From Alteromonas sp. M12 (GTDB lineage Bacteria; Pseudomonadota; Gammaproteobacteria; Enterobacterales; Alteromonadaceae): a DNA stretch of 64,000 nucleotides. The position numbers were made by a program, and so were the translations under genes. Where the stretch lies: assembly GCF_037478005.1 (NCBI RefSeq), contig NZ_CP144164.1, positions 3,906,001-3,970,000 on the forward strand. The letters run 5' to 3'. The notes beneath the pieces are model-generated. The model searched no databases. It was given only the letters and a program-made list of their open reading frames with translations, and was not told the DNA's origin. Shown here one piece after another: positions 5,766-55,285 of the stretch. Positions within the stretch are counted from its first letter, which is position 1. Each line of letters starts with the position of its first letter.

Positions 5766-5850
5766 AGTAACTCCAAAATTCTAAAAATAAGCCAAGTCGA
5801 CTAAAGCTAGCCGACGTTATGCAAAAGTACAAATATTAACTCTAGTATCC

Positions 5851-7365: not shown

Positions 7366-7378
7366 TAACCTTCCCCTT

Positions 7379-9100
7379 CTACGCTTGCGTAGTTAATTGT
7401 TTTTTACGCTGCATATTCCAATATGCAGTAATGAAATAAGTAATAGTGCAGACGAAACCAACAGTTTGAAACAGATCGCGATTGGCTTCATATGCGGGTA
7501 TACCCGAACTGAAAAACATGGTTTTAATTGCAAATATAGTCGTGATTATTAGGCTACTAATGGACACCACCTGAAGAACTTTCGAAAACAATGAAGTATC
7601 AATGCGCACGTCTGGCTCCAGACTAGCCTGTTGCTCTTGGAATTCTTCTACACGTTGTTCAAACACTTCCATTTGCTGTTTCTCGTGTGGATATTCTTCC
7701 GATGCGCCGTGGTATTTTGCCAACACTATGTAACACACAGTTGTGAAAAACCAAGTTGGGATAAATAGGTAATAAAAAGACAACACATCAAGCGCATTTA
7801 ACCCAAACCCAAATGTCAGTCCAAGACCCCATGACGCAACGGCGGGCACACTGTGAGTAAGGTTTTTGAAGGTAACCCAGTAACGCGTGAAACCTATACG
7901 TGGAAAGACAAAGTGTTCCGTGAATACGATTGCGCCAACGGGCACAACTAACAGTCCGGCGTAGGTTAATAGCGGCAGCATTTTGTTAAATACAAAGGGG
8001 AAACAGGCGATGATGACGGCAACAATTCCTACAATCAAGGTCGTTTTGTTTCTAGATTGGTTTTTAAAAATAGCTTGCGCAGCAAGACCTGAGCGGTACA
8101 GGTTGGCATTTGCAGTAGTCCAACCTGCCACAATGACGATCACTAAGCCCGATAGGCCTAATGCTTGAAAAGCAACGTCACCTGGATCTAATTCAATAAT
8201 GGATTTTTTCACAATGATAGCGGTGCCTGCCCCCATTATTCCTGCAGAAATCCAAGCAATATAGTGTCCAAATAACATGCCTGCTGAGGTACACAAACCA
8301 TATGCACGTCTTTTCGCATAACGTAAAAGTGCCATATCAATCAAACCCACGTGGGTAATAGTGTTGGCCGCCCAAGAAAAACCAATCACTTCCAACAGTC
8401 CAATACCAGGTTCGCCATTCGCGTTCACACCTGTCCACACCGATAAGCTACCAATTTCCATAAAATCAGCCCAGCCGCTCAAGCTGGTATCACCTAGTAC
8501 ATGTTGAGACAGTGCAGGTAATAGAACTAGCGGGCCACACACAAACATGACAAATAACCAAGGAGCACAAATACGCGAGAAATTAGAGACCGCTGTAAAA
8601 CCATACATGGCGACTAAAACAACGATGGTTCCAACCGCTAGTACTACACACACAAACCATAAATTAGTGGGATACCAATTGAGTTGCGCCGGGATATTCA
8701 AGGCGAATCTCACGGCTGTCGCAGAAACCGTAATCATTGCTGCTGAGATAACCGTGAAAATGATGACATTGACCCAGTTATAAAGGGTCGTCATCGAATT
8801 GCCGGCTATTTTTTGCAAATAAGTGTACAAACTCAAGCGAGTTTCAATGGCGATTGGCGTAGTTATCAATGTCCAACTCAACACCGCGAGAACGTTACCG
8901 ATCAACAAGCCAAGTAAAATATCTGACATAGTAGCGCCGAGGGCTACAAATGTGGCTCCAATGACAAATTCGGTAGCGGCAACATGCTCACCAGCATATA
9001 AGCCTAAAAAATGTGTCCATCCCTTTAACTTATGTTTAGGAATAGGTAGTTGCTCTTCACCAACAGTATTCAGATTAATTTCATATTTATCAGGTGTCAT
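7379..9100 (-). CDS. NCS1-family (purine-cytosine permease-like) transporter, candidate mannitol permease
   Basis: A 573-aa inner-membrane protein with about 12 hydrophobic segments and the start of a nucleobase:cation symporter-1 protein ('GWTHFLGLYAGEHVAATEFV', then a small-residue-rich first helix). NCS1 proteins normally carry nucleobases, allantoin, hydantoins or thiamine. This one is first in an operon whose other genes degrade mannitol, and no other sugar transporter is present in that operon. Mannitol or another hexitol is therefore the most economical substrate guess (inference). It is longer than CodB-type permeases, with an extra hydrophilic loop near residues 470-500 rich in Glu and Gln before the last membrane segments. 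Two palindromes lie 120-180 bp upstream. Confidence 0.82.
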   Translation of the reverse strand: MTPDKYEINLNTVGEEQLPIPKHKLKGWTHFLGLYAGEHVAATEFVIGATFVALGATMSDILLGLLIGNVLAVLSWTLITTPIAIETRLSLYTYLQKIAGNSMTTLYNWVNVIIFTVISAAMITVSATAVRFALNIPAQLNWYPTNLWFVCVVLAVGTIVVLVAMYGFTAVSNFSRICAPWLFVMFVCGPLVLLPALSQHVLGDTSLSGWADFMEIGSLSVWTGVNANGEPGIGLLEVIGFSWAANTITHVGLIDMALLRYAKRRAYGLCTSAGMLFGHYIAWISAGIMGAGTAIIVKKSIIELDPGDVAFQALGLSGLVIVIVAGWTTANANLYRSGLAAQAIFKNQSRNKTTLIVGIVAVIIACFPFVFNKMLPLLTYAGLLVVPVGAIVFTEHFVFPRIGFTRYWVTFKNLTHSVPAVASWGLGLTFGFGLNALDVLSFYYLFIPTWFFTTVCYIVLAKYHGASEEYPHEKQQMEVFEQRVEEFQEQQASLEPDVRIDTSLFSKVLQVVSISSLIITTIFAIKTMFFSSGIPAYEANRDLFQTVGFVCTITYFITAYWNMQRKKQLTTQA

Positions 9101-26983: not shown

Positions 26984-29122
26984 TTATTCTTGCAACAAAA
27001 AGTTTTCTTGGTTCACGTATGCTTCTTCCCAAATGAAAGCCTCTTCCCAAATGAAAGCTTCTTCCCAGATGAAAGCTTCTTCCCAAATGAAAGCCTCTTC
27101 CCAGATGAAAGCTTCTTCCCAAATGAAAGCCTCTTCCCAGATGAAAGCTTCTTCCCAAATGAAGGCTTCTTCCCAAATGAAAGCTTCTTCCCAAACCTCA
27201 AATTCAAAACCTTCGATGTAATAGTTGCCATTTTCATCTTTACGAGCAGCGCCCATATAGTGTTGTTCACCACTTAGATCCGCAGCTATGTCCAGGCCAT
27301 TGTTAGCGCATCCCATAGCAGTCGATTCAACCGCTTTAACAGCATTTACACTACCTGAACCTTGTTGGAAGGGGCTGTAAGCAAGTTGCCCATTTGATAA
27401 CTGCGCCATGGTAGTACTGCTCATTAAGCGGCACTTCACATCGTTAGCACTTAAACTCGGATCGTTTTGCAGCATTAACGCCACTATCCCACTTACCACA
27501 CCGGACGCTTGTGACGTACCAGACATAATAAAGCGATCATTTCCAACCATATATTGCGGAAATTTATTAGGCACATACATATCTTCATTAGCTAAGCTAA
27601 ATATATGTCCACCTGGCGCAACCAAATCGGGCTTAACAAAAGCTTCGTGCGTTGGACCTTGAGATGAGAATGAAAGTAACTCATCATCATGAGGATTATC
27701 TTGCGTGTAGTTGTCAGTTATTGCGCCAACACTAATAACATAAGGAACATTGGCAGGCACACCGATAGTCATTGCCGCCGGTCCAGTGTTACCAGCAGAG
27801 GTTACCACTACAATGTCTTCTTCCCATAATTTCATGATCGCTTGATTGATTGGATCCGCCCAATAATTCGAACGTGGCGGCGCACCAAAGGATAAATTCA
27901 CAACTCGAATATTAAGTTCTTCGTGATTATCAGCAATATATTGAATCGCTCTAAGTGCATCTAAATAAGTACTATGGCCATCTTCATAGAACGCTTTAAT
28001 CACCACTAGGTTTGCGTCTGGAGCAACCCCTTGATAATAACTGCGCATCTGTCCATCAACGACTGCATGGTCGCTGTTGGCGATGATCCCAGAAATATGT
28101 GTTCCATGACTATTTTCATCCGTCATATCTTCTGGTTGTAATTCCTGATTTTCAATTGCATCAAAAGCAGCTGTAATTCTAGGATTATCGTAGGTGTCAT
28201 TTTTTAGCGCTTTGTGACTCGCCCATACACCACTATCGATAACCGCAACGGTAATGTCTTTACCGGTAATACCATTGTCATGTAACTCATCAGCACCAAT
28301 GGTGTTTACATAGTAGCTGTTGCTATCGCCTTCATTGGCTTGAGTGTCGTATCCTTTCACTAGGTCACGAGTACAATTTTGGGTAAACGAAACGTCCATT
28401 GAAAAGTCGTTTTGTTGATAATTTTCTGCGCCATTACGGGAGAAAGTTAATTCAACTTTTGCATCATCAAAGGCGTTCATTTTTGCGTAACGACTTAACC
28501 AAGAAGAATCTAGGGTTAACTCTCCGTTTTGGCGGCCAAACAAGCTCCAAAACACAGTTGTACCATTGAATTTAACCGATTTGATGTTGCCCAAACTTGT
28601 AGGCCAAGTGAAACTCATTTCGTCGACATTAGTATTCATGTCACGGGCATTATATAAGTTCCAGCTCACCTTATTTTTTTCTAGGTCAACAACATGACTT
28701 CCATACACTAGGCAATTATCAAGGGCACCAGCAGTAAAAAGAGGTTGATTTTCAGTAATTGTAATCAGAGCAGGTAGACTTTTAAGCAGCTCCAATTGCA
28801 AATCAGAAACTCGTACACCAATTCCTCCGACCAACGGCAATTCGTGGGTAACCAATCCACCAACTAAATTAACTAAATCGTTGAGTACCGCAATATCACC
28901 GCCTTGGATTAAAATTTCATTATCCATTGCTAAGATGCTATTAAGCACTGGAAGCTCTGGCAATCCCAAAGATGTTGTCAATTCTGAGACATCTGTAATT
29001 GCTGTGACTTTTTCAAGATTAAGCCCCAAAAGGCCGCTGCTTGCCGCGCTTGCATTTAGAGTAGAAAAGCTCAACAACCCACTTACGAGAACTGCAATCT
29101 TATTTCTATTGTTTAGTTTCAT
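26984..29122 (-). CDS. secreted S8-family subtilase with WEEAFI hexapeptide-repeat tail
   Basis: 712 aa, exported (signal peptide about 1-27, ending NASA-A). A prodomain-like region (about 28-270) of uncertain fold precedes a subtilase domain with a full active site: Asp296 ('VIDSGVW'), His339 ('NSHGTHISG'), oxyanion Asn445 ('SAGNTG') and Ser537 ('SGTSQASG'). After the catalytic domain comes a short linker ('ENGNYYIEGFEFEV'), then nine perfect WEEAFI units and a final WEEAYV, ending 'NQENFLLQE'. Similar tryptophan-containing hexapeptide runs (of a VWGDSI type) occur, from memory, at the C-termini of other bacterial subtilases; their role is unknown. The tail is strongly acidic and aromatic and might anchor the enzyme, bind a partner or act in secretion. 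No PEP-CTERM or GlyGly-CTERM motif is present. It is monocistronic with its own terminator. Confidence 0.92.
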   Translation of the reverse strand: MKLNNRNKIAVLVSGLLSFSTLNASAASSGLLGLNLEKVTAITDVSELTTSLGLPELPVLNSILAMDNEILIQGGDIAVLNDLVNLVGGLVTHELPLVGGIGVRVSDLQLELLKSLPALITITENQPLFTAGALDNCLVYGSHVVDLEKNKVSWNLYNARDMNTNVDEMSFTWPTSLGNIKSVKFNGTTVFWSLFGRQNGELTLDSSWLSRYAKMNAFDDAKVELTFSRNGAENYQQNDFSMDVSFTQNCTRDLVKGYDTQANEGDSNSYYVNTIGADELHDNGITGKDITVAVIDSGVWASHKALKNDTYDNPRITAAFDAIENQELQPEDMTDENSHGTHISGIIANSDHAVVDGQMRSYYQGVAPDANLVVIKAFYEDGHSTYLDALRAIQYIADNHEELNIRVVNLSFGAPPRSNYWADPINQAIMKLWEEDIVVVTSAGNTGPAAMTIGVPANVPYVISVGAITDNYTQDNPHDDELLSFSSQGPTHEAFVKPDLVAPGGHIFSLANEDMYVPNKFPQYMVGNDRFIMSGTSQASGVVSGIVALMLQNDPSLSANDVKCRLMSSTTMAQLSNGQLAYSPFQQGSGSVNAVKAVESTAMGCANNGLDIAADLSGEQHYMGAARKDENGNYYIEGFEFEVWEEAFIWEEAFIWEEAFIWEEAFIWEEAFIWEEAFIWEEAFIWEEAFIWEEAFIWEEAYVNQENFLLQE
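27014..27193. repeat. 10-unit, 18-bp in-frame tandem repeat (minisatellite)
   Basis: Ten contiguous 18-bp units encode the hexapeptide tail of the subtilase. The unit nearest the stop codon encodes WEEAYV. The other nine all encode WEEAFI and differ from each other only at three sites: ATT/ATC for Ile, GAA/GAG for Glu and GCT/GCC for Ala. All are synonymous in the protease frame. Because 18 is a multiple of three, gain or loss of units keeps the frame. The same three sites are also silent in one antisense frame, so the silent pattern by itself does not prove which strand is under selection. Confidence 0.95.
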
Positions 29123-40446: not shown

Positions 40447-41664
40447 TTGAAAATTAAAGAAATCAAAGTATTTGTTTGTAACCCTGGCAGAAATTTTGTC
40501 ACGGTGAAGATCACTACTGATGCAGGCATATACGGTGTAGGTGATGCTACACTCAACGGTCGCGAAATGGCGGTTGTCAGCTATTTGGAAGAACATGTAG
40601 CCCCTTGCCTTATCGGTCGCAATGCCCATGATATCGAAGACATATGGCAATATTTGTATAAAGGCGTTTACTGGCGTAAAGGCGCAGTTAATATGGCCGC
40701 TATAGCCGCTATTGATATGGCCTTATGGGACATCAAAGGGAAGGCTGCAGGCTTGCCGGTTTATCAGTTACTAGGCGGTAAGAGCAGACAAGCAGTAACA
40801 CTTTATGCCCATGCTAGTGGTGAAGACATCGAAGACACTTTGAATAAAACGGAAGACCTTATCAATCAAGGTTTTAAAGCAATTCGATTGCAGTCTGCTG
40901 TGCCCGGTTTGAATGTCACTTACGGCGTACTTGGAGACAAAAAAGATTACTTCGAATTACAAGGTAATCGTCCGTTACCGCCAGAAGAGACCTGGTCGAC
41001 GCAAAAATATTTTAACATGATCGTTGAGTTGTTTCAGAAGGCCAGAGAACGATTTGGCAATGACATCCAACTATTACACGACGTGCATAGCCGCTTAACC
41101 CCAATAGAATCAGCAAAACTGGGTAAATTACTTGAACCCTATAACCTAATGTTCTTAGAAGACGCTTCTATTGCTGAGAATCAAGACAGTTATAAAGTAA
41201 TTCGACAGCACACCACTACCCCACTCGCGATTGGTGAAACTTACAATACTATTTGGGATTGTAAGGATTTGATTCAAAACCAACTGATTGATTACCTTAG
41301 AGCGGCCGCAACTCACGCTGGCGGAATTACAGCATTAAGACGTATGGCAGATTTTGCCAGTATATATAACGTTAAAACTGCTCCACATGGCGCTCCTGAT
41401 TTGTCACCAATTTGTTTTGCTGCGCATATGCATTTAAATATATGGGCTCCTAACTTTGGCATTCAAGAATTTGTTGGTTTTGGTAACGAGCAGTCCAAAC
41501 AAATTTTCAAACATCAAATTAAAGTAGAGCAAGGCATGGCATACGTCAGTGACGCCCCTGGTCTAGGGATTGAGTTTGATGAAACAGAAGCAAGTAAATA
41601 TCCCTATAAACGTTCTTATCTGCCTGTCAGTCGACTAGAAGATGGAACCGTTTGGAATTGGTAA
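40447..41664 (+). CDS. ManD/RspA-subgroup dehydratase of the enolase superfamily
   Basis: 405 aa from a TTG start preceded by AAAGAGAG; no in-frame ATG lies near the conserved N-terminus 'KIKEIKVFVCNPGRNFVTVK'. It has the full enolase-superfamily capping domain and TIM barrel, with 'AAIAAIDMALWDIKGKAAGL', 'LLHDVHSRLTP' (metal Asp), 'LEDASIAENQ' and 'AIGETYNT' (metal Glu residues), and the ManD signature 'HGAPDLSP' (His314) followed by 'PNFGIQEFV'. Family members dehydrate D-mannonate, some D-gluconate, to 2-keto-3-deoxygluconate. Ala316 follows His-Gly where, from memory, efficient mannonate dehydratases have Pro, so activity may be low or on another sugar acid. It is first in a LacI-controlled operon. 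Confidence 0.85.
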   Translation: MKIKEIKVFVCNPGRNFVTVKITTDAGIYGVGDATLNGREMAVVSYLEEHVAPCLIGRNAHDIEDIWQYLYKGVYWRKGAVNMAAIAAIDMALWDIKGKAAGLPVYQLLGGKSRQAVTLYAHASGEDIEDTLNKTEDLINQGFKAIRLQSAVPGLNVTYGVLGDKKDYFELQGNRPLPPEETWSTQKYFNMIVELFQKARERFGNDIQLLHDVHSRLTPIESAKLGKLLEPYNLMFLEDASIAENQDSYKVIRQHTTTPLAIGETYNTIWDCKDLIQNQLIDYLRAAATHAGGITALRRMADFASIYNVKTAPHGAPDLSPICFAAHMHLNIWAPNFGIQEFVGFGNEQSKQIFKHQIKVEQGMAYVSDAPGLGIEFDETEASKYPYKRSYLPVSRLEDGTVWNW

Positions 41665-41702
41665 TCCAGTTCTACTTTTTTGAATTTAAGCTTTGTTAAG
41701 TT

Positions 41703-41706
41703 GGAG
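41703..41706 (+). promoter_or_regulatory. ribosome-binding site deciding the oxidoreductase start
   Basis: GGAG lies 7 nt before ATG 41714. It favours this start over an in-frame TTG 21 bp upstream that has no ribosome site. Confidence 0.75.
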
Positions 41707-41713
41707 AAACAAC

Positions 41714-42853
41714 ATGAGCAAAAAGATAAGTGTATTAATATTCGGCACCGGATTTGCGGGCCAAGGACATGCTGAAGCATTTCGAGATATGGGTGCCGAA
41801 GTCGTCGGCATCGTAGGCAGAACTCAAAGTGTTGTAGAGCAAGTAGCTAAAGACATGAATATCCCCTATGCCGGCACAGATTGGCAAAAAGCATTGCAAG
41901 ATTGTCAGCCAGATGTCGTTTCAATTGCAACACCAGGTGGTGCTCACGTTGAAGCAATTACCGCGGCGATTGAAAGTGGTTGTCACGTTTTCTGTGATAA
42001 GCCGTTAACTGAAAGTGGTGAAACCTCAAAACAACTTTATGAGTTGGCGGTTGCAAAAAATGTCAAAACTGCATTTGCCGCAAGCTTTCGCTACATGCCT
42101 GATGTGATTCACGCCAAGCGTTTAGTTGAAGCCGGCGCTATCGGTGAACCATTAGAAGTTGAGTGTATTTCTCACTTCAATTTAGAACGCGATATTCCGT
42201 TTGGCTGGTCACACAGAAAAGAACATGGCGGTGGCCGACTAAATAATAACTTTACTCACAAATTGTCTATTGTCACTTCCATCGTTGGTGAAAAAATCCT
42301 ATCGATTATGGGAGAGGTGCGGGACGATCTAGGCAAAGCGCCAATCGTTGAAGGTGTGCATAACTTTAAAAAACGTCGCGATTTCATTCCTAGTGATCTA
42401 AATGATCCTGCTCTTAAATGGGGCGAATCGAACGTCGAATGGACCTATACGGTTTTAGCTCAAATTGAAAGTGAAATGGCTAAAAATCCAGTTTCAGTGT
42501 TATTTAAACACGGTGGATTACACCCTCGCTTCCATGAAGACCATGTGGTGATTTATGGTAGTGAAGGCGCGATCTACATTAAAGGACACTATGCTAGTGG
42601 GCCATTGTATGTGCATGACAAAACCAAAGGATGGCAAGAGCTTGCATTACCAGAGGACATTGCTAATAACGTTCCTGAAGCAGAAGGCGATACCGAAAAG
42701 AATTGGCGCTACCTTATCAGAGAACTACTAAACGATATTAAAGGCGAAAACGTTGCTCCTTATCAAACGTTTAAAGAAGGCAGCCAATATCAGCAACTGA
42801 TCGACATAATCCGTAAAAACGACAATTGGGTTGACGTTAGTCATCTGCAATAA
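41714..42853 (+). CDS. Gfo/Idh/MocA-family NAD(P)-dependent oxidoreductase
   Basis: 379 aa, cytoplasmic. The Rossmann dinucleotide site 'LIFGTGFAGQGH' is at the N-terminus, 'ATPGGAHVEAI' and the catalytic-Lys motif 'CDKPLTE' follow, and the C-terminal domain holds 'HKLSIV' and 'GHYASGP'. The family oxidises or reduces sugars and polyols at a hydroxyl or carbonyl carbon, often as the first step in catabolism of an unusual sugar or uronate. Between a ManD dehydratase (49 bp upstream) and a sodium symporter (11 bp downstream), its likely job is to convert the imported compound to the aldonate that ManD dehydrates. The exact substrate is unknown. Confidence 0.88.
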   Translation: MSKKISVLIFGTGFAGQGHAEAFRDMGAEVVGIVGRTQSVVEQVAKDMNIPYAGTDWQKALQDCQPDVVSIATPGGAHVEAITAAIESGCHVFCDKPLTESGETSKQLYELAVAKNVKTAFAASFRYMPDVIHAKRLVEAGAIGEPLEVECISHFNLERDIPFGWSHRKEHGGGRLNNNFTHKLSIVTSIVGEKILSIMGEVRDDLGKAPIVEGVHNFKKRRDFIPSDLNDPALKWGESNVEWTYTVLAQIESEMAKNPVSVLFKHGGLHPRFHEDHVVIYGSEGAIYIKGHYASGPLYVHDKTKGWQELALPEDIANNVPEAEGDTEKNWRYLIRELLNDIKGENVAPYQTFKEGSQYQQLIDIIRKNDNWVDVSHLQ

Positions 42854-42864
42854 AAGGCCTACTC

Positions 42865-44628
42865 ATGTTATATGAATATATAGTTATTGCCGGATATTTT
42901 ATGTTAGTTATCGGGATTGGTTTTGCGTTCAAAAAAATGGCTGCAAACTCAACCAGCGATTACTTCCGTGGTGGCGGACGCATGCTTTGGTGGATGGTTG
43001 GTTCAACTGCGTTTATGGCGCAGTTCTCCGCTTGGACATTCACCGGCGGAGCAGGCAAAGCCTTTACTGATGGTTTCTCGATTAGTTTAGTATTTTTTGC
43101 CAATACCTTTGCCTATTTTTGCGGCTGGGCGTTTTTTGCAGCGCGCTTTCGTCAAATGCGCGTAGATACTCCTACCGAAGGAATTAAGCGTCGTTTTGGT
43201 CATCAAAATGAACAGTTTTTCTCATGGGCGCTGATTATTTTCAGTTTTATCAACGCCGGAGTATGGCTTAATGCCCTAGGAGTGTTCACCAGTGTTGTTT
43301 TTGACGCTGATGTGAGCACCACCATCATCGCCACCGGCCTAACTGTATTATTTGTTTCGGTATTGTCTGGTGCTTGGGGCGTAGTCGCCTCTGACTTTGT
43401 ACAAACCTTAGTGGTTGCCGTCATTTCCATAGCCTGCGCCATTATCGCACTTGTCAAAGTGGGTGGACCGACGGCGATGATAGATAACTTCCCAGTGGAC
43501 TTTGTGATGGGACCAGATATGAATTATGGCTTAATTTTAGTGGCCACATTTGTATTTTTCCTAGCTAAACAAATGATCACTATCATGAACATGCATGATT
43601 CATTTCGCTTCTTAAACGCAAAAGACTCAGCAAATGCAAGTAAAGCCGCGTTGTTAGCCATGGTACTAATGGGTGTAGGAAGTATTATTTGGTTTATACC
43701 ACCTTGGGCCTCAGCCACCTTATACCCTGACGCGGCGGCAGCTTACCCGGAGCTAGGCAACAAAGCTGCTGATGCGGTGTATTTGGTATTTACCCGCAAC
43801 GCTATGCCGGTGGGAACTGTCGGATTATTGTTAGCCGGTTTGTTTGCAGCCACTATGTCCTCAATGGATTCAGCCCTAAATAAGAATTCAGGCATTTTCG
43901 TCCGCAGTATTTACCAACCTCTTTTGACTAAAAGAAACAAAGATGTCAGTGATAAACACCTGCTTACCATCAGTCAAATTGTCAGTTTTATAAGTGGGAT
44001 TTTGGTTATCGCAGTGGCGCTATTCTTCAAGTCATTGAAAGAGCTCAGTCTGTTTGACTTGATGATGAACGTGTCGACCATGATTCAAGTTCCTTTGCTT
44101 ATTCCGCTTATTTTTGGTTTGTTCATTAAAAAGACACCGCAATGGGCGCCTTGGGCAACTGTAATAGTGGGCTTGTTTGTTTCTTGGTTTGCAGCAAATA
44201 TCTTCACGCCGCAAGTTTTGGCCGATTTGATAGGAATGGAACAAGAATTTACTCGCCGTGAATCGATTGATATCAACTTGATGATCACTATTGGCGGACA
44301 CTTACTTATTACCGCCAGTTTCTTCTGTATATCCAGTTTGTTTTATTCAGAACAAAAAGATCAACATATCAATGAAAGAGAGCTGTTTTTTGAAGATCTA
44401 GAGACCCCTTTCATTGCCGATTTTGAGCAAGATGAATTCGACCGTCAACAACGTCACAAATTAGGTTCAATGGTGATGTATATGGGAGCTGGGGTACTGG
44501 CGATGATGTTGATTCCGAATCCAATGTGGGGACGCTTGGTATTTGTATGCTGTGCACTTGCCATACTCGCTGTCGGTTTCTTATTGAAAAGAAGCGCCAC
44601 ATCGAAAAAAGCACTAAGCACCGCATAG
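42865..44628 (+). CDS. sodium:solute symporter (SSS family)
   Basis: 587 aa, about 14 hydrophobic segments. The family start 'ADYFRGG'-like motif reads 'STSDYFRGGGRMLWWMVG', followed by 'TFTGGAGKAF' and, in the core, 'GLLLAGLFAATMSSMDSALNKNSG', which holds the Na+-site Ser/Thr residues. A cytoplasmic loop near 480-540 is acidic ('FFEDLETPFIADFEQDEFD'), before a final pair of membrane segments. SSS carriers import sugars, sugar acids or other organic solutes with Na+. Given the operon, a uronate, aldonate or related monosaccharide is the likely cargo. An AAGG ribosome site lies just after the oxidoreductase stop. Confidence 0.9.
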   Translation: MLYEYIVIAGYFMLVIGIGFAFKKMAANSTSDYFRGGGRMLWWMVGSTAFMAQFSAWTFTGGAGKAFTDGFSISLVFFANTFAYFCGWAFFAARFRQMRVDTPTEGIKRRFGHQNEQFFSWALIIFSFINAGVWLNALGVFTSVVFDADVSTTIIATGLTVLFVSVLSGAWGVVASDFVQTLVVAVISIACAIIALVKVGGPTAMIDNFPVDFVMGPDMNYGLILVATFVFFLAKQMITIMNMHDSFRFLNAKDSANASKAALLAMVLMGVGSIIWFIPPWASATLYPDAAAAYPELGNKAADAVYLVFTRNAMPVGTVGLLLAGLFAATMSSMDSALNKNSGIFVRSIYQPLLTKRNKDVSDKHLLTISQIVSFISGILVIAVALFFKSLKELSLFDLMMNVSTMIQVPLLIPLIFGLFIKKTPQWAPWATVIVGLFVSWFAANIFTPQVLADLIGMEQEFTRRESIDINLMITIGGHLLITASFFCISSLFYSEQKDQHINERELFFEDLETPFIADFEQDEFDRQQRHKLGSMVMYMGAGVLAMMLIPNPMWGRLVFVCCALAILAVGFLLKRSATSKKALSTA

Positions 44629-44676
44629 GCGGTGCTATTGCTTCTATTTTAACGAATTATTACACGAGTGAATTGG

Positions 44677-45522
44677 ATGTTTTCAAAATTAAAATTTGTT
44701 TTTATTGCCAGTGGTCTTCTGCTACTCGCCGCTTGCAAACCATCTATTGAAGAAAAGCATGAACAAAAATCAGTCACGCTAAGCCATGGTGTGGATGAGT
44801 CTGCCGGTGGTGTTAGCGCTTATATAATTAGTATCGATAACGCCACTTTTTATCTTGAAAAACAAGGTGGTGGGCTATCAAGTATGTTAGACAAAGATGG
44901 CGTGGATTGGATTGGGTTCCACGATGAGAAAGGTTCAGGTTGGAAAGGCGAGTATCGTGGTTTTCCAAATGCAATACACAAACAAGACGGAAATTATTTC
45001 CATGCGTTAAACGCGGGAACCGAGCTGTCGACTTCAAGCATTGATATTGAAACGGATGAACACGTCAGAATTACCTTCACTTCAGGTAATGGTAAATGGC
45101 AGGGACAATGGGACTTCTATCCAGATCGCTGCGATTTCACGATGTCACAAGTCAGTGAAGGCTATAAATATTGGGTGCAATATGAAGGCGTACCCGGTGG
45201 AGAGATGGACGAAACTGATTTCTGGTATGCCTCTGTCGATGACCAACAACACCCCATAAATGAAGCTTTTATTGGTGATCTTCCCGCACCTGAATGGTTT
45301 GCTTTTGGGGATGTAAAAACATCGAGAATGATCTATTTATTACATCATCAAGATGATGCATATCCGGATGACTATGTAAGCAGACCATATATGACGGTAT
45401 TGGGCTTTGGACGTCATGAAAAAGACAAATATCTGAGCACTCCTCAATCATTTTCGTTAGGATTTATTGAGTCATCTGATTATCCTGAAGTTGCGCAACA
45501 AATCAGAAATATACTGAAATAA
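44677..45522 (+). CDS. lipoprotein of unknown function in the ManD operon
   Basis: 281 aa from the chosen ATG (GAG 8 nt upstream; a GTG three codons earlier is the alternative). The lipobox LLAAC (lipidated Cys20) follows a hydrophobic run. The mature part is rich in Trp, Tyr, Gly and acidic residues and predicted beta-sandwich or jelly-roll: 'DWIGFHDEKGSGWKGEYRGF', 'GNYFHALNAGTE', 'WQGQWDFYPDRC', 'YWVQYEGVPGGEMDE'. I do not recognise the family. The aromatic-rich surface and the position after a sugar symporter suggest a carbohydrate-binding or carbohydrate-cleaving protein (inference). It follows the symporter by 48 bp. Confidence 0.75.
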   Translation: MFSKLKFVFIASGLLLLAACKPSIEEKHEQKSVTLSHGVDESAGGVSAYIISIDNATFYLEKQGGGLSSMLDKDGVDWIGFHDEKGSGWKGEYRGFPNAIHKQDGNYFHALNAGTELSTSSIDIETDEHVRITFTSGNGKWQGQWDFYPDRCDFTMSQVSEGYKYWVQYEGVPGGEMDETDFWYASVDDQQHPINEAFIGDLPAPEWFAFGDVKTSRMIYLLHHQDDAYPDDYVSRPYMTVLGFGRHEKDKYLSTPQSFSLGFIESSDYPEVAQQIRNILK

Positions 45523-47841: not shown

Positions 47842-50800
47842 TTAGAAGCGGTAGCTACCACCAATGGTGATTCTACGGTCAGTTAAACCTTGGTAACAAA
47901 GCAAACCACCTTCGTTGATACAACTTTGCTCAACTTCAGACTCTGTGAGGTTAACAGCTTCAATACCAACGTTGAATTGCTCATTGATATCATAACTTAC
48001 GCTAGCGTTAAGTTGTCCTCTGTCTTCTTGTACCACTGGGAATCCCCAAGGTAAGCTAGAAGTACTACCGAAGTCAGTTGAACGGTACGCTTCACGCCAT
48101 GTGTAACGCATACGAGCCGACAAACCATACTTTTCATAGTACAACGTAAAGTTGTAAGAGTTTTCAGACAAGTCAAGTAAGCCCTGAACTGCAGAAACAC
48201 TGATATCGTCAATACCCGTTGTTAATGCAAACACAGCGTTAGCACGGCTAGTTGCTGAATCTTCTGCCTCACCACCTGAGAACTCTTGAATGGTATAGTT
48301 GAAAATCACACCGAAACCAGAAGCCCAACCTAGGTCATCTTCGAAACCAGCAAGGTCATATTGAACAGCAAATTCAATCCCTTTCTGAGTCGTTTCACCA
48401 GTGTCATTAATTTTTTGCGATGTAGGAACACATACGCCGGTACCAATTGGACCAAATACGTTGATGTCTGCAATTGGGTTAAAGATACCGCCGCCTTCAC
48501 AAGGATCTGTGATATCACGGAAACCAGTTACAGGATCTTCATATGGGTCATCTTGTTGAGTTACGTGCAATTCAGAACGTTTCTTGTGGAAAATACCAAG
48601 ACTAACCATACTTGCTTCAGCAAAATACCATTCAGCAGACAAATCGAATGAAGTCACTTCTTCAGGAGCCAAACCAGGGTTACCTAGTTGTACTGCTGGG
48701 TTTGGACTAGTAGAGAATGTATACGACGTTGAAAGGTCATCAAAATCAGGACGTCTAATATCTTTTCCCCAACCTGCACGAACAACAACATCATCGTGTA
48801 CATCGGCTACTACGTTAATACGTGGTAATACGAAGTCGTAATCACTTTCAGTTGTAACAGCAGTAACCACATCGTTAGTTACAGAGTTACCTCTTGAAGT
48901 CACGTCAGTTTTTAAATAACGCACACCAAAGTTACCGCGGAGCATTTCATAAGAGAAGTTACCTTGCGCATACAAAGCAGTCGTTTTCTCTTCAATATCA
49001 AAGAAAGCAGCTGAGCTTGAAGTTGGTGAACTAATAGGTCCACGAGTTGAACCAGTAATAGCATTATTAGCAACAATGGCATCATTTAAAATAGCTAACA
49101 CGCCATCTGGATCTGAAGCAACTCTTTCTGCGTCAATAAGAAGAAAATCACGTACGTATAATTCTCTACCATCAGCATCATTAAAGTTAGTCGGCCCAGG
49201 TACCAGTAGTTCTGCGAACAAATCACCAGTAGGGCTATCTGCGAATTCTCTTAAACCTACGCTGGTCGTAATCTCGTCACGAAGACTGTTTACTTTACTG
49301 TAACGGAAACCAACATCAACCGAAGTCACAACACCGTCTAGGTAATAAGTGAAATCAGTACGGAAAGCATCTTCACTGTTTTCCGCGACATCTTGGCCAA
49401 TCGCCACATCACGCAATACCACGTTAGCTGGGTCAAGTAGTTGTTCAGAGCTAGGGCCAGTTACTTCACCTGTAGCAACACCAAAGGTTAGTGCGTTGCC
49501 GGTTAAATCGTAAATAAATGGCGTACCATTTTCGTTTGAATCGTATAGGTCTTCATTACCGTTTGCTTCATTGGCAAAGTGATTGGCTAGAAGAGCTTCA
49601 GCATTCAATGGAGAGTTAGGGTTGATAAAGTTCAATGTAGTATTGAAGCTAGGAGTAGTAGTATCAGAGCTTGAAGAAGACAGCTCAGCACTCACTTTAA
49701 AGTTATCACCGGTCCACTCACCACCAAGTCTGTAAATTTCACTTTTGGTTATACGAGAATTTGTATCACCTGAGAAACGTAAGTTACCGTCAGAACCATC
49801 TCCATCAATTGGAATGACACCACGTACAGCTGCTTGGATGCTACCAAGGTCTTGGCCACCTAAAGAACCAAAGTTAACCGTTTCGAATTCACTAGGAGCG
49901 GCAATGTCTTTAAGTCCACTAATACCTGATGCTTGAATTCTTGAACTTTCTTGTCTGCGTTCTTGATCGTTAATAACGGCATCAAAAAACAACTTCAACT
50001 CTTCTCTTGGCGCCCATTCAAAAGTAGCGGCAATGTTAGTAGATTCATATTCGTAGTTGTCATAATCTTGTACGAAGAATTGAATTGGTAAGTAATCAAA
50101 ATCTTGTGCACTTGCCGCGCCACTATCTGCAGCTACAGAGTTATCTCTATCAGCACGAGGACGGAAAGCAGTAACATCTTGCTCAGCATAGTTAAGACTT
50201 ACTACTACACCGAATTCGCCGTTATCAGTATCCCAATTGTCGCCAAAAGTACCTGATAGTCTAGGAGTAAAAGTACTGTCTGTAGATAAGCTACTATTTT
50301 CACCTTGTACACGAACGGAGATTAGGGTGTCATTAAGCTGAAGTGGACGTATTGTTTTCAGGTTTACAGTTCCACCCACAGATCCTTCAATTGTTTTAGC
50401 TTCAGGAGACTTCGTCACCTCAACGCCAGATATAATTCCTGCTGAAACATCTTCAAAACTAATACCGCTGCGTCCAGCGCCAGAACCCACAGTAGATACA
50501 CCGTTGATTTCCGTTCGGTTAGAGTTAGTACCACGGATTTGAACACCGGTACCAACACCAGCTGTTCTTGTAATCTGAATACCAGTAACGTTCTCTAGTA
50601 CTTCCGCAAGGTTTTGATCTGGTAGCTTACCAATATCAACCGCTTCAATGACTTCAACCAAGTTATTCGATTCCCGCTTTTCGGCAAGGGCGTTGGTTAG
50701 TGAGCTACGAATACCTGTTACTTGAATAACCTCGTAATCGTCATCTGCACTTGGCTGCGCATCTTGTGCAAAAGCAGATGCGGACATATTTAGCGCGGTT

Positions 50801-50844
50801 GCTGAAAGCATCGCTAAAGTAATTTTCGATAATCTGTGTTGCAT
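47842..50844 (-). CDS. TonB-dependent receptor (carbohydrate-type, Xanthomonas/Caulobacter group)
   Basis: 1,000 aa. The signal peptide (about 1-26, ending ASAFAQ) is followed by a TonB-box-like 'YEVIQVTGIRSSL', a plug domain (about 45-165) with 'GKLPDQNLAEVLENVTGIQI' and 'GVQIRGTNSNRTEINGV', and a long 22-strand barrel ending in 'RRITIGGSYRF' with the terminal Phe needed for outer-membrane insertion. The length and plug signature match the group that imports oligosaccharides in plant- and algae-degrading bacteria, rather than siderophore receptors. It lacks an N-terminal signalling extension. Set between the ManD and UxuA operons, it probably imports the oligosaccharide whose uronate residues those enzymes consume. 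SD AGGA. Confidence 0.93.
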   Translation of the reverse strand: MQHRLSKITLAMLSATALNMSASAFAQDAQPSADDDYEVIQVTGIRSSLTNALAEKRESNNLVEVIEAVDIGKLPDQNLAEVLENVTGIQITRTAGVGTGVQIRGTNSNRTEINGVSTVGSGAGRSGISFEDVSAGIISGVEVTKSPEAKTIEGSVGGTVNLKTIRPLQLNDTLISVRVQGENSSLSTDSTFTPRLSGTFGDNWDTDNGEFGVVVSLNYAEQDVTAFRPRADRDNSVAADSGAASAQDFDYLPIQFFVQDYDNYEYESTNIAATFEWAPREELKLFFDAVINDQERRQESSRIQASGISGLKDIAAPSEFETVNFGSLGGQDLGSIQAAVRGVIPIDGDGSDGNLRFSGDTNSRITKSEIYRLGGEWTGDNFKVSAELSSSSSDTTTPSFNTTLNFINPNSPLNAEALLANHFANEANGNEDLYDSNENGTPFIYDLTGNALTFGVATGEVTGPSSEQLLDPANVVLRDVAIGQDVAENSEDAFRTDFTYYLDGVVTSVDVGFRYSKVNSLRDEITTSVGLREFADSPTGDLFAELLVPGPTNFNDADGRELYVRDFLLIDAERVASDPDGVLAILNDAIVANNAITGSTRGPISSPTSSSAAFFDIEEKTTALYAQGNFSYEMLRGNFGVRYLKTDVTSRGNSVTNDVVTAVTTESDYDFVLPRINVVADVHDDVVVRAGWGKDIRRPDFDDLSTSYTFSTSPNPAVQLGNPGLAPEEVTSFDLSAEWYFAEASMVSLGIFHKKRSELHVTQQDDPYEDPVTGFRDITDPCEGGGIFNPIADINVFGPIGTGVCVPTSQKINDTGETTQKGIEFAVQYDLAGFEDDLGWASGFGVIFNYTIQEFSGGEAEDSATSRANAVFALTTGIDDISVSAVQGLLDLSENSYNFTLYYEKYGLSARMRYTWREAYRSTDFGSTSSLPWGFPVVQEDRGQLNASVSYDINEQFNVGIEAVNLTESEVEQSCINEGGLLCYQGLTDRRITIGGSYRF

Positions 50845-51509: not shown

Positions 51510-52724
51510 ATGCGTGAATCTTGGAGATGGTTCGGTCCCAACGACCCCGTAACCATAAATGATATAAGACAAACAGGTGCAACTGATGTTGTCAGTGCGC
51601 TGCATACTATTCCTACCGGTGACGTTTGGTCAATTGAAGCGATTCGTCAATATCAGGCTCTAATAGAAAACTGTGAAGATGATCTTATGCCCCTTAAATG
51701 GAGTGTAGTAGAAAGTATTCCTGTCCATGAAGATATAAAACTGAGACGACCTGGCCATCAAAAGTACATCGATAATTGGATCGAATCGATGGAAAACCTA
51801 GCCAAATGCGGAATAAAAACAATTTGCTACAACTTCATGCCGGTGATTGATTGGACGCGTACCGATCTCAAATTCAAACTTCCCAACGGTGCATATGCGC
51901 TGCGTTTTGATCAGAAAAAGTTTGCCGCCTTCGATCTTTTTATTTTGCAACGTGATAACGCTGAAGCAGAATACAGTGCAGCTGAAATAGAAGAAGCAAA
52001 ACAGGTCTTTGAAGCTATGTCTGAGGCCGATAAAGAACAACTGACCAACAATATAATTGCTGGTCTACCTGGTAAAATGACTGACGCTTATGGACTGGAC
52101 GATTTTCGCGCCATGCTAAGCAACTACAAAGATGTAACAAGTGATACTTTACGTGAAAGTTTGTTTGCATTTCTAGCACAAGTTCTTCCTCGCGCAGAAG
52201 CTTTGGGCGTTAAACTGGCCATTCATCCTGATGATCCACCTCGAGATATGCTTGGACTACCGCGTATTATTTGTACCGCAGACGACTTGGATATTCTGTT
52301 TAATGCACTACCTAGCCCTTCAAACGGTATTACCCTTTGCGTAGGCACATATAGCAGTCGTCCAGACAACAACTTACCGGCTATGGCTAAGCAATTTGGA
52401 CCGCGTATTCATTTCTCTCATCTTCGCGGTGTCACCCGTGACCCTAATGAACAGCGCACTTTTTACGAAGCTAGCCATCTCGATAGTGACATAGACATGA
52501 TTCATGTGGTGAAAGAATTGTTGAATGAAGAAAACCGACGTCGACAAGCCAACTCGCTAGATCAAGACATATTTATTCGTCCCGATCATGGTCATCAGAT
52601 GATGGATGACATCGGTAAAACCGTCAACCCAGGCTATTCCGGCATTGGTCGTTTGAAAGGTCTTGCCGAAGTTAGAGGGGTAATAAGAGCCCTCTCTGCC
52701 CAGTTCGAAGAGCAATCATCATGA
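51510..52724 (+). CDS. uxuA: D-mannonate dehydratase
   Basis: 404 aa, the usual UxuA size, cytoplasmic. It is recognisable throughout: N-terminal 'MRESWRWFGPNDPV', 'GIKTICYNFMPVIDWTRTDL', metal-site region 'LAIHPDDPP', 'GLPRIICTADDL', 'FSHLRGV' and C-terminal 'DIFIRPDHGHQMMDD'. UxuA removes water from D-mannonate to give 2-keto-3-deoxygluconate, the committed step of glucuronate catabolism. It is the first gene of a unit with a class I mannose-6-phosphate isomerase homologue, whose ATG overlaps its stop by 4 bp, and an Nramp-fold transporter. A UxuR-like site lies upstream. It is unrelated in fold to the ManD enzyme 10 kb away. Confidence 0.95.
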   Translation: MRESWRWFGPNDPVTINDIRQTGATDVVSALHTIPTGDVWSIEAIRQYQALIENCEDDLMPLKWSVVESIPVHEDIKLRRPGHQKYIDNWIESMENLAKCGIKTICYNFMPVIDWTRTDLKFKLPNGAYALRFDQKKFAAFDLFILQRDNAEAEYSAAEIEEAKQVFEAMSEADKEQLTNNIIAGLPGKMTDAYGLDDFRAMLSNYKDVTSDTLRESLFAFLAQVLPRAEALGVKLAIHPDDPPRDMLGLPRIICTADDLDILFNALPSPSNGITLCVGTYSSRPDNNLPAMAKQFGPRIHFSHLRGVTRDPNEQRTFYEASHLDSDIDMIHVVKELLNEENRRRQANSLDQDIFIRPDHGHQMMDDIGKTVNPGYSGIGRLKGLAEVRGVIRALSAQFEEQSS

Positions 52725-53803
52725 ATAATATCATTAAGTTTTCGGCAAACCGTGTTTGGCGAACCTATCAAGGTGGAAAATTGCTCGATCTAATCGAAGG
52801 CAAAGAGAATCCACAAGATTCCAGTTTTCCAGAAGATTGGATTGGTTCAACGGTAGAAGCCCGTAACATTGGCCGCGAAGAGATCTCTGAAGGATTAGCA
52901 ACCGTCAAGCTTGAAGATGGCAAATCAGTGACGTTTCGTGACTTGTTGAATCAAGATCAACAACACTTTTTAGGTTATGTTAATAACTCTGCTCGCTCGT
53001 TAGATGACATTCCGCTAGTAAAATACCTGGACAGTGCCACACGGTTGCATTTCCAAGCGCATCCTACCCGGGAATTCGCACAACAAAGACTAGGTTATCC
53101 TCGTGGGAAAACCGAAGCATATGTTATTTTGGAGATCCGCGAAGATGTAACTGATCCCTACATTTACGCCGGCTTTCAAAGATCACCCAGTCGTGAACAG
53201 CTCAAAAAATGGATAGAAGAACAAGATATTGCCTCCATTGAAAAGTGTTTCGATCGCATACCTGTAAAACCAGGTGACGTATTTTTGCTGCCAGGCGGAC
53301 GTCCCCATGCGTTAGGAGAAGGCATTTTGATGTTGGAGATCATGGAACCATCTGATTTAGCAGTCAGATTTGAATTCGAAAGATGTGGTTATGTGATTCC
53401 TGAAAAAGCACGCTTTATGGACCGCGGCATAGAGACTGCATTAGATGCGTTCAACTTCTCCCCTGTTCCGCCTGAACAGATAGATGATGAATTTCGTTGC
53501 ATCCCAGAAGTACTGATTGACGACAACGCGGGTAACACCCTCGAAGAGCTAATCGGTCCTGATAAAACCCCTTGCTTTACCGTCAGACGTGCTACCGTTC
53601 AAGGCAATTTCCTGCGTAAACAAGATGCTTTTTTCATAGGGGTAGTAACCCAAGGAAGTGGTGTTTTGCGAGCAGGAAATGAAGTTACCCAATTAAATCA
53701 GTGGGATCGCTTCTTTTGTCCTGCAAACATTGAAGATTTCCAATACGAATCTGAATCGGGAATGACTGTACTGGAGTGCTATCCAGGAAGTGACAAAAAA
53801 TAA
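52721..53803 (+). CDS. class I mannose-6-phosphate isomerase homologue
   Basis: 360 aa, the short bacterial type of the cupin-fold phosphomannose isomerase. Metal-site elements are visible: 'HFQAHPT', 'GKTEAYVIL' and 'PGGRPHALGEGILMLEI'. The canonical enzyme interconverts mannose 6-phosphate and fructose 6-phosphate in the cytoplasm. Here it starts within the last codons of uxuA (ATGA overlap) and so is translationally coupled to mannonate dehydratase, a setting where mannose 6-phosphate has no evident source. It may isomerise another sugar or sugar acid in the pathway, or process mannose from the same polysaccharide (inference). No truncation is seen. Confidence 0.85.
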   Translation: MNNIIKFSANRVWRTYQGGKLLDLIEGKENPQDSSFPEDWIGSTVEARNIGREEISEGLATVKLEDGKSVTFRDLLNQDQQHFLGYVNNSARSLDDIPLVKYLDSATRLHFQAHPTREFAQQRLGYPRGKTEAYVILEIREDVTDPYIYAGFQRSPSREQLKKWIEEQDIASIEKCFDRIPVKPGDVFLLPGGRPHALGEGILMLEIMEPSDLAVRFEFERCGYVIPEKARFMDRGIETALDAFNFSPVPPEQIDDEFRCIPEVLIDDNAGNTLEELIGPDKTPCFTVRRATVQGNFLRKQDAFFIGVVTQGSGVLRAGNEVTQLNQWDRFFCPANIEDFQYESESGMTVLECYPGSDKK

Positions 53804-53995: not shown

Positions 53996-55285
53996 ATGAC
54001 AGAGGTACCACAAATGGATCATCCGAACAAAAAGTCTTTTAAACAAAAGTTTGCCCAAGGACTGGCTCTTTTTCTACCCGGTATTTTCTTACTGGGATTC
54101 AACATTGGCACCGGCAGTGTTACCGCAATGGCAAAGGCAGGCGCTGAATATGGCATGTCTTTATTGTGGACCATCATAGCCTCCTGTTTATGTACTTTTT
54201 TCATGATTAACTTGTATGGTCGTTATACCTTAATCACTGGCGAAACGGCTCTTCAAGCATTTAGGAAGCACATCCACCCAGGTGTCGGCATTTTCTTCTT
54301 AGTGGCACTAACCTTTGGTGTATGTGGCAGTGTAATGGGTGTAATGGGTATAGTGGCCGATATCTGTTATGAATGGTCAAAATCTGCTATCGATGGTGGT
54401 ATTGCGCCTATTTACTTTGCTGGATTTTTTCTAAGCTTGGTTTATTTCATATTTTGGAATGGTAAAACCGAGTTTTTCGAGCGTAGCCTCGCGGTTATTG
54501 TCGCCATAATGTCGGCGTGTTTTTTAATAAACTTCTTTATCATGATGCCGCCTCCAATGGAGATTCTAAAAGGCTTAATACCCAGTATTCCAGAAGTGAC
54601 ATCATCTACCGACAAGGGGCCATTTTTAGTCATCGCCTCAATGATTGGCACCACTGTTTTTTCCGGTTTATTTATTATCCGCACCACCTTGGTAAAGGAA
54701 GCGGGCTGGACCTTGGCTGATTATAACAAACAACGTAATGACGCTATTTTCTCGGTATTTCTGATGTTCATCATCAGTGCATCCATTATGGCTGCAGCCG
54801 CGGGCACCTTATTCGTTGAAGGTATTGGTTTATCCAAAGCATCTCAAATGATAGGTATTTTAGAACCACTAGCGGGAACCTTAGCGACCTCAATATTTGC
54901 GTTTGGATTGATAGCAGCTGGCGTGTCCTCACAATTTCCTAATATATTAATGCTACCTTGGCTGTTGTGTGACTACACCGGCGCAGAACGCGATATGACC
55001 CTAGCTAAATTCCGTATCATGGTATTTGTTATTTCACTGCTTGGCTTAGTTGTACCGATTTTTGATGCACGCCCGGTGTTTGTGATGATTATTTCCCAAG
55101 CGTTTAATGCCGTTATCTTGCCAGTTACCGTAGCTTGCATTTTCTATCTGGGTAATCGCAAGGATTTAATGAAAGAGCATGCTAACAGCTGGATAGCCAA
55201 TGTCATTCTTGCCGCGATTTTACTGTTTTCAATCTTCACGTCGGCAATTGGCATAAAAGGAGTTTGGCAATTAGTGGTTGCTTAA
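53996..55285 (+). CDS. Nramp-fold transporter lacking the metal-binding motifs
   Basis: 429 aa with about 11 membrane segments and the overall Nramp layout, e.g. 'AGAEYGMSLLW' matching 'QAGASFGYQLLW' of MntH. In TM1 the metal-binding Asp-Pro-Gly-Asn is replaced by GTGS (38-41). In TM6 the Met-Pro-His motif is replaced by Phe-Ser-Gly (222-224). Without the Asp, Asn, Met and His ligands it is unlikely to carry Mn or Fe. Its position behind uxuA and the isomerase, with a good GGAG ribosome site and a strong terminator after it, makes a sugar-acid or other organic substrate likely (inference). It is separated from the isomerase gene by 192 bp, so it may have its own promoter. Confidence 0.85.
   Translation: MTEVPQMDHPNKKSFKQKFAQGLALFLPGIFLLGFNIGTGSVTAMAKAGAEYGMSLLWTIIASCLCTFFMINLYGRYTLITGETALQAFRKHIHPGVGIFFLVALTFGVCGSVMGVMGIVADICYEWSKSAIDGGIAPIYFAGFFLSLVYFIFWNGKTEFFERSLAVIVAIMSACFLINFFIMMPPPMEILKGLIPSIPEVTSSTDKGPFLVIASMIGTTVFSGLFIIRTTLVKEAGWTLADYNKQRNDAIFSVFLMFIISASIMAAAAGTLFVEGIGLSKASQMIGILEPLAGTLATSIFAFGLIAAGVSSQFPNILMLPWLLCDYTGAERDMTLAKFRIMVFVISLLGLVVPIFDARPVFVMIISQAFNAVILPVTVACIFYLGNRKDLMKEHANSWIANVILAAILLFSIFTSAIGIKGVWQLVVA

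Follow-up and report, generated by a model that had tools for sequence, protein, structure and literature searches.

An Nramp-related protein without the canonical metal motifs, encoded beside uronate genes in Alteromonas sp. M12, is a probable sugar-acid carrier

Nramps are textbook metal transporters, and a gene of Alteromonas sp. M12 raises the question of what an Nramp-fold protein carries once its metal-binding motifs have been replaced. The gene lies in a stretch of 64,000 nucleotides, hereafter the window (contig NZ_CP144164.1, positions 3,906,001 to 3,970,000). A preliminary description of the window had read GTGS and FSG in place of the canonical DPGN and MPH motifs of the encoded protein, and had proposed an Nramp branch that carries an organic solute such as a sugar acid. 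Re-calling of the open reading frame (ORF) and alignments showed its coordinates and both motif readings to be correct, and the proposal itself is supported by gene context, clade and motif loss, that is, by context rather than by assay. We conclude that the protein, hereafter the carrier, probably transports an organic (sugar-)acid instead of a metal, on the evidence of its motif loss and predicted fold, its clade and gene neighbourhoods, the co-occurrence data and the other carriers found in related modules. The gene has the following features:

53996..55285, + strand: Nramp-related carrier of 429 amino acids, group A of the GTGS clade (ORF, Pfam, tree, AlphaFold2 model)
54107..54118, + strand: break in transmembrane helix 1 (TM1), residues 38-41, GTGS replacing DPGN (alignment, conservation, model)
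54659..54667, + strand: break in TM6, residues 222-224, FSG replacing MPH (alignment, conservation, model)
54680..54682, + strand: Arg229, at the site of the second TM6 His of canonical Nramps (invariant in 88/88 GTGS-clade rows)

The carrier is a full-length member of Pfam PF01566 (Nramp; 189.3 bits, gathering cut-off 29.8). It also matches the NCBIfam model NF037982 'Nramp family divalent metal transporter' above its cut-off (60.3 versus 50 bits), so that a pipeline would name it a metal transporter, as had been foreseen. Both matches favour a first alternative, namely that the carrier imports divalent metals after all, through an unusual site, and supplies cofactor metal to the mannonate dehydratase UxuA or to the isomerase encoded nearby. 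The residues at the site speak against this. When the carrier was aligned with three gammaproteobacterial DPGN/MPH proteins (L191-L193), DPGN fell on G38-T39-G40-S41, MPH on F222-S223-G224, and the second TM6 His of those proteins on R229. The TM3 Glu of ScaDMT aligned with G115 in a HMMER alignment and with a gap in a MAFFT alignment; the G115 position is an invariant Gly across the GTGS clade. The carrier thus has neither the TM1 DPGN, nor the TM6 MPH, nor the TM3 proton-path glutamate of canonical Nramps. No Asp, Glu, His, Met or Cys was found at either helix break in the model or the alignments, and this lack of acidic, His or Met ligands, together with an invariant Arg near TM6, argues against a metal importer. 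With an Nramp fold but without the canonical metal and proton motifs, the carrier is an Nramp-related protein, one of a paraphyletic group (PMC12873925; here and below, statements from articles cited by PMC number refer to the accessible parts of those articles).

The replacement is fixed among relatives. GTGS is kept in all 37 close rows covering the region, S223 in 39/39, and F222 and G224 in 37/39 each, and 143 of the 429 positions are invariant among the window protein and 38 named loci. Exact peptide patterns retrieved these loci, which are closely related (59-100% identity, the L004 protein being 100% identical to the window carrier); L142, L151 and L152 were added to them, and two loci, L140 and L131, were excluded because they duplicate L007 and L011. 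Both GTGS and R229 are also invariant across all 88 rows of a joint alignment of the wider clade, which takes in more distant relatives retrieved from further genomes. Since the replacement is fixed in close rows and in the wider clade, it is not a product of chance or decay. That the gene encodes a sensor or a decaying paralogue rather than a transporter, for which we found nothing beyond the motif loss itself, is very improbable.

The AlphaFold2 model of the carrier (predicted local distance difference test score, pLDDT, 89.6) and PDB comparison showed an Nramp/SLC11 (LeuT-type) fold with broken TM1 and TM6. TM1 is split between residues 27-36 and 39-52 and TM6 between 209-220 and 223-236. 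Because the model breaks both helices at the replaced motifs, the alignment is in register and the ligands are not merely shifted within the breaks; the structure prediction suggested in the preliminary description, together with the alignments, thus disposes of the objection raised there that the metal ligands might be displaced.

In a 77-row maximum-likelihood tree the GTGS-type members formed a clade with support 98/99. Groups A2, B, C, D and E had bootstrap 100 each, and A + A2 was supported 99/92; within it, locus L039 splits off before the separation of A and A2, so that group A by itself is not monophyletic. The tree is midpoint-rooted and has several long branches, which cautions against interpreting its deep order. 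The TM6 break differs by group: FSG in A and A2, SVF in B, CSA in C, MAA or MAS in D, and MAG or MAA followed by SRSI in E. DPGN, NRMT-like (DAGS, NDAG) and GPGT proteins sit on branches other than the GTGS clade. The carrier and the NRMT-like proteins fall on separate supported branches, EleNRMT itself being outside the tree; GPGT proteins encoded beside pxpA (L236, L237) likewise branch separately from GTGS, the YcsG and PxpT sequences themselves being outside the tree. Group A+A2 is uncommon, with 3/295 genomes of the order, 5/59 genomes of the family and none new in 398 genomes of the phylum.

In LeuT-fold proteins, helices 1, 3, 6, 8 and 10 line the substrate site. Positions that are conserved within groups and differ between them (at least 80% conservation in every group from A to E and three or more letters among the groups) made up 29/149 positions of these helices versus 13/152 of the other helices (p 0.005), and TM6 alone contributed 9 of its 28 positions.

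We surveyed the gene neighbourhoods of the clade. A sugar-catabolism marker lay within 7 kb in 81/91 GTGS loci versus 0/21 control loci, which are Nramp-related loci of GPGT type within the same bacterial family; the markers had been chosen from the very GTGS loci that were counted, a bias toward the GTGS side that tells against our reading of this comparison. By group, the counts were 36/41 (A), 4/5 (A2), 3/5 (B), 10/10 (C), 23/24 (D) and 5/6 (E); six Nramp-like matches of other type (L137, L146-L150) were excluded from the GTGS counts, L150 being in the control set. UxuA, the second mannonate dehydratase type ManD, a UxuB-like enzyme, a phosphomannose isomerase (PMI)-like protein or an AGE-family protein was encoded within 7 kb in 40/46 A+A2 loci, and three of the six misses (L022, L033, L037) were on short contigs or at a contig end. 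Since the markers came from GTGS loci, Pfam was also run on direct neighbours without pre-selection (one ORF to each side for GTGS, two for the control). The 86 neighbouring ORFs of A+A2 yielded UxuA (13), MPI_cupin (11), Mannitol_dh (8), PMI_typeI (8), GlcNAc_2-epim (6) and TonB receptors (3), and the 88 of groups B-E yielded KDPG aldolase (11), amidohydrolase (NagA, 10), glucosamine isomerase (NagB, 9) and SDR (8). In contrast, the 84 control ORFs yielded acyltransferases (9), aminotransferases (8) and TonB receptors (6), with no sugar-acid family among the 25 commonest of 74. No metal-uptake family appeared among the 25 commonest of 89 (A+A2) or of 59 (B-E) families in the GTGS tallies; the metal-named entries were NosD, with two members that are listed with Beta_helix and are probably lyase beta-helices, and one RTX calcium repeat. 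As each tally holds the 25 commonest families, single genes of any kind may be hidden in all three. Within these commonest families, then, the homologues lie beside sugar genes and not beside metal-homeostasis genes, the context that the preliminary description had named as telling against its proposal.

These neighbourhoods also bear on the metal importer. UxuA and PMI are metal enzymes, which would suit a role in cofactor supply. Furthermore, other non-canonical Nramp-related proteins do move metals, which counts against a sugar-acid carrier: EleNRMT carries Mg2+ (PMC12873925), YcsG/MntG is linked to Mn2+ import (PMC10448178), and of the NrmT proteins (Mg2+/Mn2+) the clostridial ones are implicated in Mg2+ uptake while that of A. 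capsulatum rescued a Mn2+ transport defect (PMC4072509). However, the partner enzymes vary by group, those of group D being an aldolase, kinases, SDR proteins and lyases; a TRAP transporter is encoded beside the PMI-like gene and uxuA in a genome without the carrier (L262); and metal-uptake families are missing from the commonest neighbours. A metal importer is therefore unlikely. Metal supply specifically for UxuA was considered as the primary explanation and set aside, the UxuA marker being unseen beside group C and present in 1/24 group D loci, and the TRAP-bearing L262 doing without the carrier.

Which acid a probable sugar-acid carrier would transport can be approached through the enzymes encoded next to it. 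Two genes lie directly upstream:

51510..52724, + strand: uxuA, D-mannonate dehydratase (399 bits in Pfam, 510 bits for TIGR00695)
52721..53803, + strand: PMI-like isomerase, proposed D-mannuronate isomerase, overlapping uxuA by 4 bases

Pfam and TIGRFAM matches thus agree with the earlier observation that the carrier follows uxuA and a phosphomannose-isomerase homologue; its neighbours in the window also include peptidase M28 genes. The PMI-like protein scores 75.8 bits against TIGR00218, below the cut-off of 116.2, and its model (pLDDT 86.5) has PMI structures as best matches. Q112, H114, E132 and H196, which we take to be the zinc site, are kept in 23/23 rows, and the last three pair with identical letters in 1qwr. 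Across A+A2, the PMI-like isomerase occurs in 22/46 loci and the AGE family in 6/46, the two never together (0/46), and all 23 direct isomerase-carrier adjacencies are on the same strand; the A2 locus L153 has a carrier and no PMI-like gene within 7 kb. The occurrence of two unrelated aldose-ketose isomerases of mannose type in the same setting points to a substrate of mannose configuration. The UxuA marker is present in 24/46 A+A2 loci, and five (L006, L008, L011, L034, L142) have the gene order uxuA, PMI-like, UxuB-like, Nramp.

We propose that the carrier is a secondary importer of Nramp (LeuT-type) fold, whose central site would be rebuilt for a sugar acid instead of Mn2+/Fe2+ and whose uptake would be driven by Na+ or H+. 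The likeliest single substrate would be D-mannuronate, the saturated monouronate that can remain after alginate is broken down, and the PMI-like isomerase may convert it to D-fructuronate. UxuB would then reduce D-fructuronate to D-mannonate, and UxuA or ManD would convert D-mannonate to 2-keto-3-deoxygluconate (KDG), feeding the Entner-Doudoroff route. The choice of D-mannuronate over another uronate is tentative, with the chances slightly short of even.

The distribution of the PMI-like gene is consistent with such a pathway. Among the 59 genomes of the family, close PMI-like orthologues were present in 5/5 with an A/A2 carrier versus 2/54 without (Fisher p 4e-6), or 3/54 without if a partial 30% match in genome G040, kept outside the main count, is included (p 1e-5), and UxuA was present in 4/5 versus 8/54 (p 0.005), all of these p-values ignoring kinship; the list of PMI-like orthologues spans 8/59 genomes. 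In a draw of 249 Bacteroidota genomes six had the PMI-like gene, and a carrier of group A, A2 or E is present in all six; in G815 the two genes are on different contigs. With one PF03786 UxuA in this 5.01 Mb genome, chance would place a gene within 7 kb of it in about 0.3% of cases.

In genomes for which the searches of family and order gave no A/A2 carrier, PMI-like orthologues (nine at 44-51% identity, G032 at 48%, G009 at 78%) show what else can stand in the module. Their 11 loci (L261, L262, L284-L292) have UxuA in 8/11, a UxuB-like gene in 7/11 and alginate lyases in 6/11; no marker was seen at L261 or L289, and the Bacteroidota locus L293 held only the PMI-like gene itself. PL7 lyases are encoded in L285-L287 and L290, a PL6-type domain in L291, and two PL17-like genes with KdgK and KdgA in L292. 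In L262, TRAP DctP and DctM genes lie directly upstream of the PMI-like gene and uxuA, and an SSS symporter gene lies in L284, L291 and L292, with UxuA also present in L284 and L292. TRAP carriers transport organic acids, while the substrates of SSS carriers are mostly organic solutes; given their presence in related modules, the Nramp-fold protein plausibly does the same job.

Several observations weigh against D-mannuronate uptake as proposed here. In the window, 192 bases separate the PMI-like gene from the carrier gene, so that their co-transcription is not assured. The nearest PDB match of the UxuB-like enzyme is mannitol 2-dehydrogenase (1lj8), and the enzyme scores under the fructuronate reductase cut-off; our searches did not separate the two activities. 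The AGE partner resembles D-mannose isomerase (NF051846, 201.9 bits, below the cut-off of 600). The alginate link of A+A2 is modest, with a PL6, PL7 or PL17 marker within 7 kb in 5/46 loci and PL6- or oligoalginate-lyase clusters anywhere in 9/38 named loci; it is stronger in group D and for the PMI-like gene outside carrier loci. An SSS symporter gene lies within 7 kb of the carrier gene in 3/46 A+A2 loci and also in the neighbouring row of the window, so that SSS genes do not always stand in for the carrier. Group C pairs with neutral amino-sugar genes and yet keeps Arg229. Finally, the relatives are not independent and may have travelled as a cassette.

The mannitol dehydrogenase and mannose isomerase matches are also what recommends a further alternative, in which the carrier imports a neutral brown-algal sugar or polyol (D-mannose, D-mannitol) and its partners are a mannose isomerase and a mannitol 2-dehydrogenase. 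However, UxuA accompanies the carrier in about half of the A+A2 loci, and we know of no role for UxuA in mannose or mannitol use; moreover, the PMI-like orthologues outside carrier loci keep company with UxuA, UxuB-like enzymes and alginate lyases. We hold a neutral substrate to be improbable, to about the same degree as a metal. A more serious alternative, possible though less likely than D-mannuronate, is import of a different solute of the uronate kind, whether D-mannonate, L-guluronate, D-glucuronate, unsaturated uronate (DEH) or a short oligomer. Some loci contain alginate lyases, SusD proteins and TonB receptors, which is in keeping with such a substrate, as is the presence of both mannonate dehydratase types in the window. 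Yet with D-mannonate the isomerase would be unneeded, and D-glucuronate would need UxaC, whose marker was seen beside group B only. As for DEH, MFS carriers occur within 7 kb in 4/41 group A and 13/24 group D loci, and may serve DEH there, a role that is itself conjectural.

Beyond D-mannuronate import in group A, the GTGS clade as a whole could be a family of carbohydrate importers on the Nramp fold, in which GTGS and the Arg form a common organic-solute site, the TM6 break is rewritten in each branch, and the PMI-like protein is a D-mannuronate isomerase acting without phosphorylation; we regard this combined reading as evenly poised. Its substrates would be D-mannuronate (A), glucuronate (B), an amino-sugar derivative (C) and alginate monomers or gluconate-type acids (D, E). 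The partners by group are UxaC (3/5) in B, NagA (10/10) and NagB (9/10) in C, KDG kinase (11/24), PL6 (10/24) and PL7 (10/24) in D, and GH88 (2/6) in E. The group C loci (e.g. L165, L174, L179, L180) also encode two Gfo/Idh dehydrogenases, each in 8/10, beside NagA and the NagB-like protein, which suggests that the group C carrier imports an N-acetylamino-sugar derivative.

Comparison with described systems sets the carrier apart. It differs from canonical Nramp/SLC11 metal transporters (DraNramp, 6d91; human NRAMP1, 9f6q) in its replaced DPGN, MPH and TM3 Glu and in a genome context of sugar-acid catabolism. BfraNramp (10ky), a clade B Nramp, retains DPGN/MPH and carries Mn2+ and Cd2+ (PMC12873925), whereas the carrier has neither motif; the Mg2+ carrier EleNRMT (7qia) has NDAG in TM1 in our alignment. 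Loss of both metal motifs in Nramp-related proteins is already known from the same article (Ray et al. 2026), in which the NRMT-like and MntG groups are partly characterised and other groups are called 'entirely uncharacterized'. An organic-solute precedent also exists in PxpT/YcsG (5-oxoproline uptake, TCDB 2.A.55): Corynebacterium requires PxpT, an Nramp-family protein, to grow on 5-oxoproline, and deletion of ycsG in B. subtilis blocked use of 5-oxoproline as nitrogen source (PMC13274462). Polar effects have been raised for the latter result, however, and YcsG/MntG reportedly takes part in Mn2+ import; in Acinetobacter, a ycsG-like gene has urea genes as neighbours (PMC10448178). The operon partner of PxpT/YcsG is pxpABC, unlike the UxuA, PMI-like and peptidase M28 neighbours of the carrier; the genome's own pxpA is 1.2 Mb distant. 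In Alteromonas sp. 76-1, the alginate clusters of the alginolytic systems contain an Nramp gene, named there only as 'Nramp, metal-ion transporter' (PMC6431674), which is probably group D of the GTGS clade. This was the sole relevant item found for Nramp with mannuronate or alginate lyase. For alginate uronates, the review PMC6353982 describes the DEH route. The accessible parts of PMC7953866, PMC13274419, PMC5385347 and PMC11381880 mentioned neither an Nramp carrier nor a gene for a D-mannuronate isomerase, and no sugar-acid Nramp proposal was found in the literature searched, subscription papers being mostly outside its reach.

Further genes of the window comprise a neighbouring row and a divergent gene:

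40447..41664, + strand: D-mannonate dehydratase of ManD type (682.8 bits, cut-off 550), the second in the window, within a nearby row of sugar-acid genes
41693..44628, + strand: dehydrogenase (weak levoglucosan/inositol dehydrogenase matches) and SSS-type sodium:solute symporter, same row as ManD
47842..50844, - strand: TonB-dependent receptor, divergent from uxuA, a cluster member within 7 kb in 12/41 group A loci

A 284-aa lipoprotein-like ORF at 44668-45522 (+) had no NCBIfam match at 1e-20, and its cluster (c18) recurs in 3/38 loci (L004, L014, L034). At 4818-9100 (-), sugar-kinase-like, fructuronate-reductase/mannitol-dehydrogenase-family and large permease-like ORFs follow one another and may form a mannitol or fructuronate operon of their own. 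A serine-protease-like ORF at 26984-29122 (-) ends in a C-terminal array of nine WEEAFI repeats and one WEEAYV.

This genome has three PF01566 matches, none with DPGN. One of its Nramp-related genes, of GPGT type (L001, at 3836256), adjoins a TonB-receptor-like ORF with stretches rich in His, Asp and Glu; this context is metal-like and differs from that of the GTGS clade. In the 4-kb loci L236 and L237, a GPGT/VPYN Nramp-related gene lies directly upstream of pxpA (PF03746) and two pxpB/pxpC-sized genes in the same direction, so that the GPGT branch may carry an organic acid (5-oxoproline) there. A very divergent Nramp-like protein with GPGF in TM1 (L223:232-1425) also adjoins pxpA and represents a second Nramp-related lineage beside 5-oxoproline genes. 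Another lineage near sugar-acid genes is a 560-aa PF01566 protein with GGGSLASA near its start (L264:12577-14259, genome G049), clustered with UxuA, a GntR-like regulator and a Gfo/Idh-like dehydrogenase.

Together, these analyses give one uncharacterised Nramp-related group a testable substrate class and its subgroups separate predicted substrates, and they suggest candidate residues that set specificity. If the assignment is true, metal and sugar-acid carriers would coexist in one protein family, the missing uptake and isomerase step of saturated D-mannuronate would have named genes, and proteins depicted as 'metal transporters' in marine polysaccharide loci may turn out to carry nutrients.
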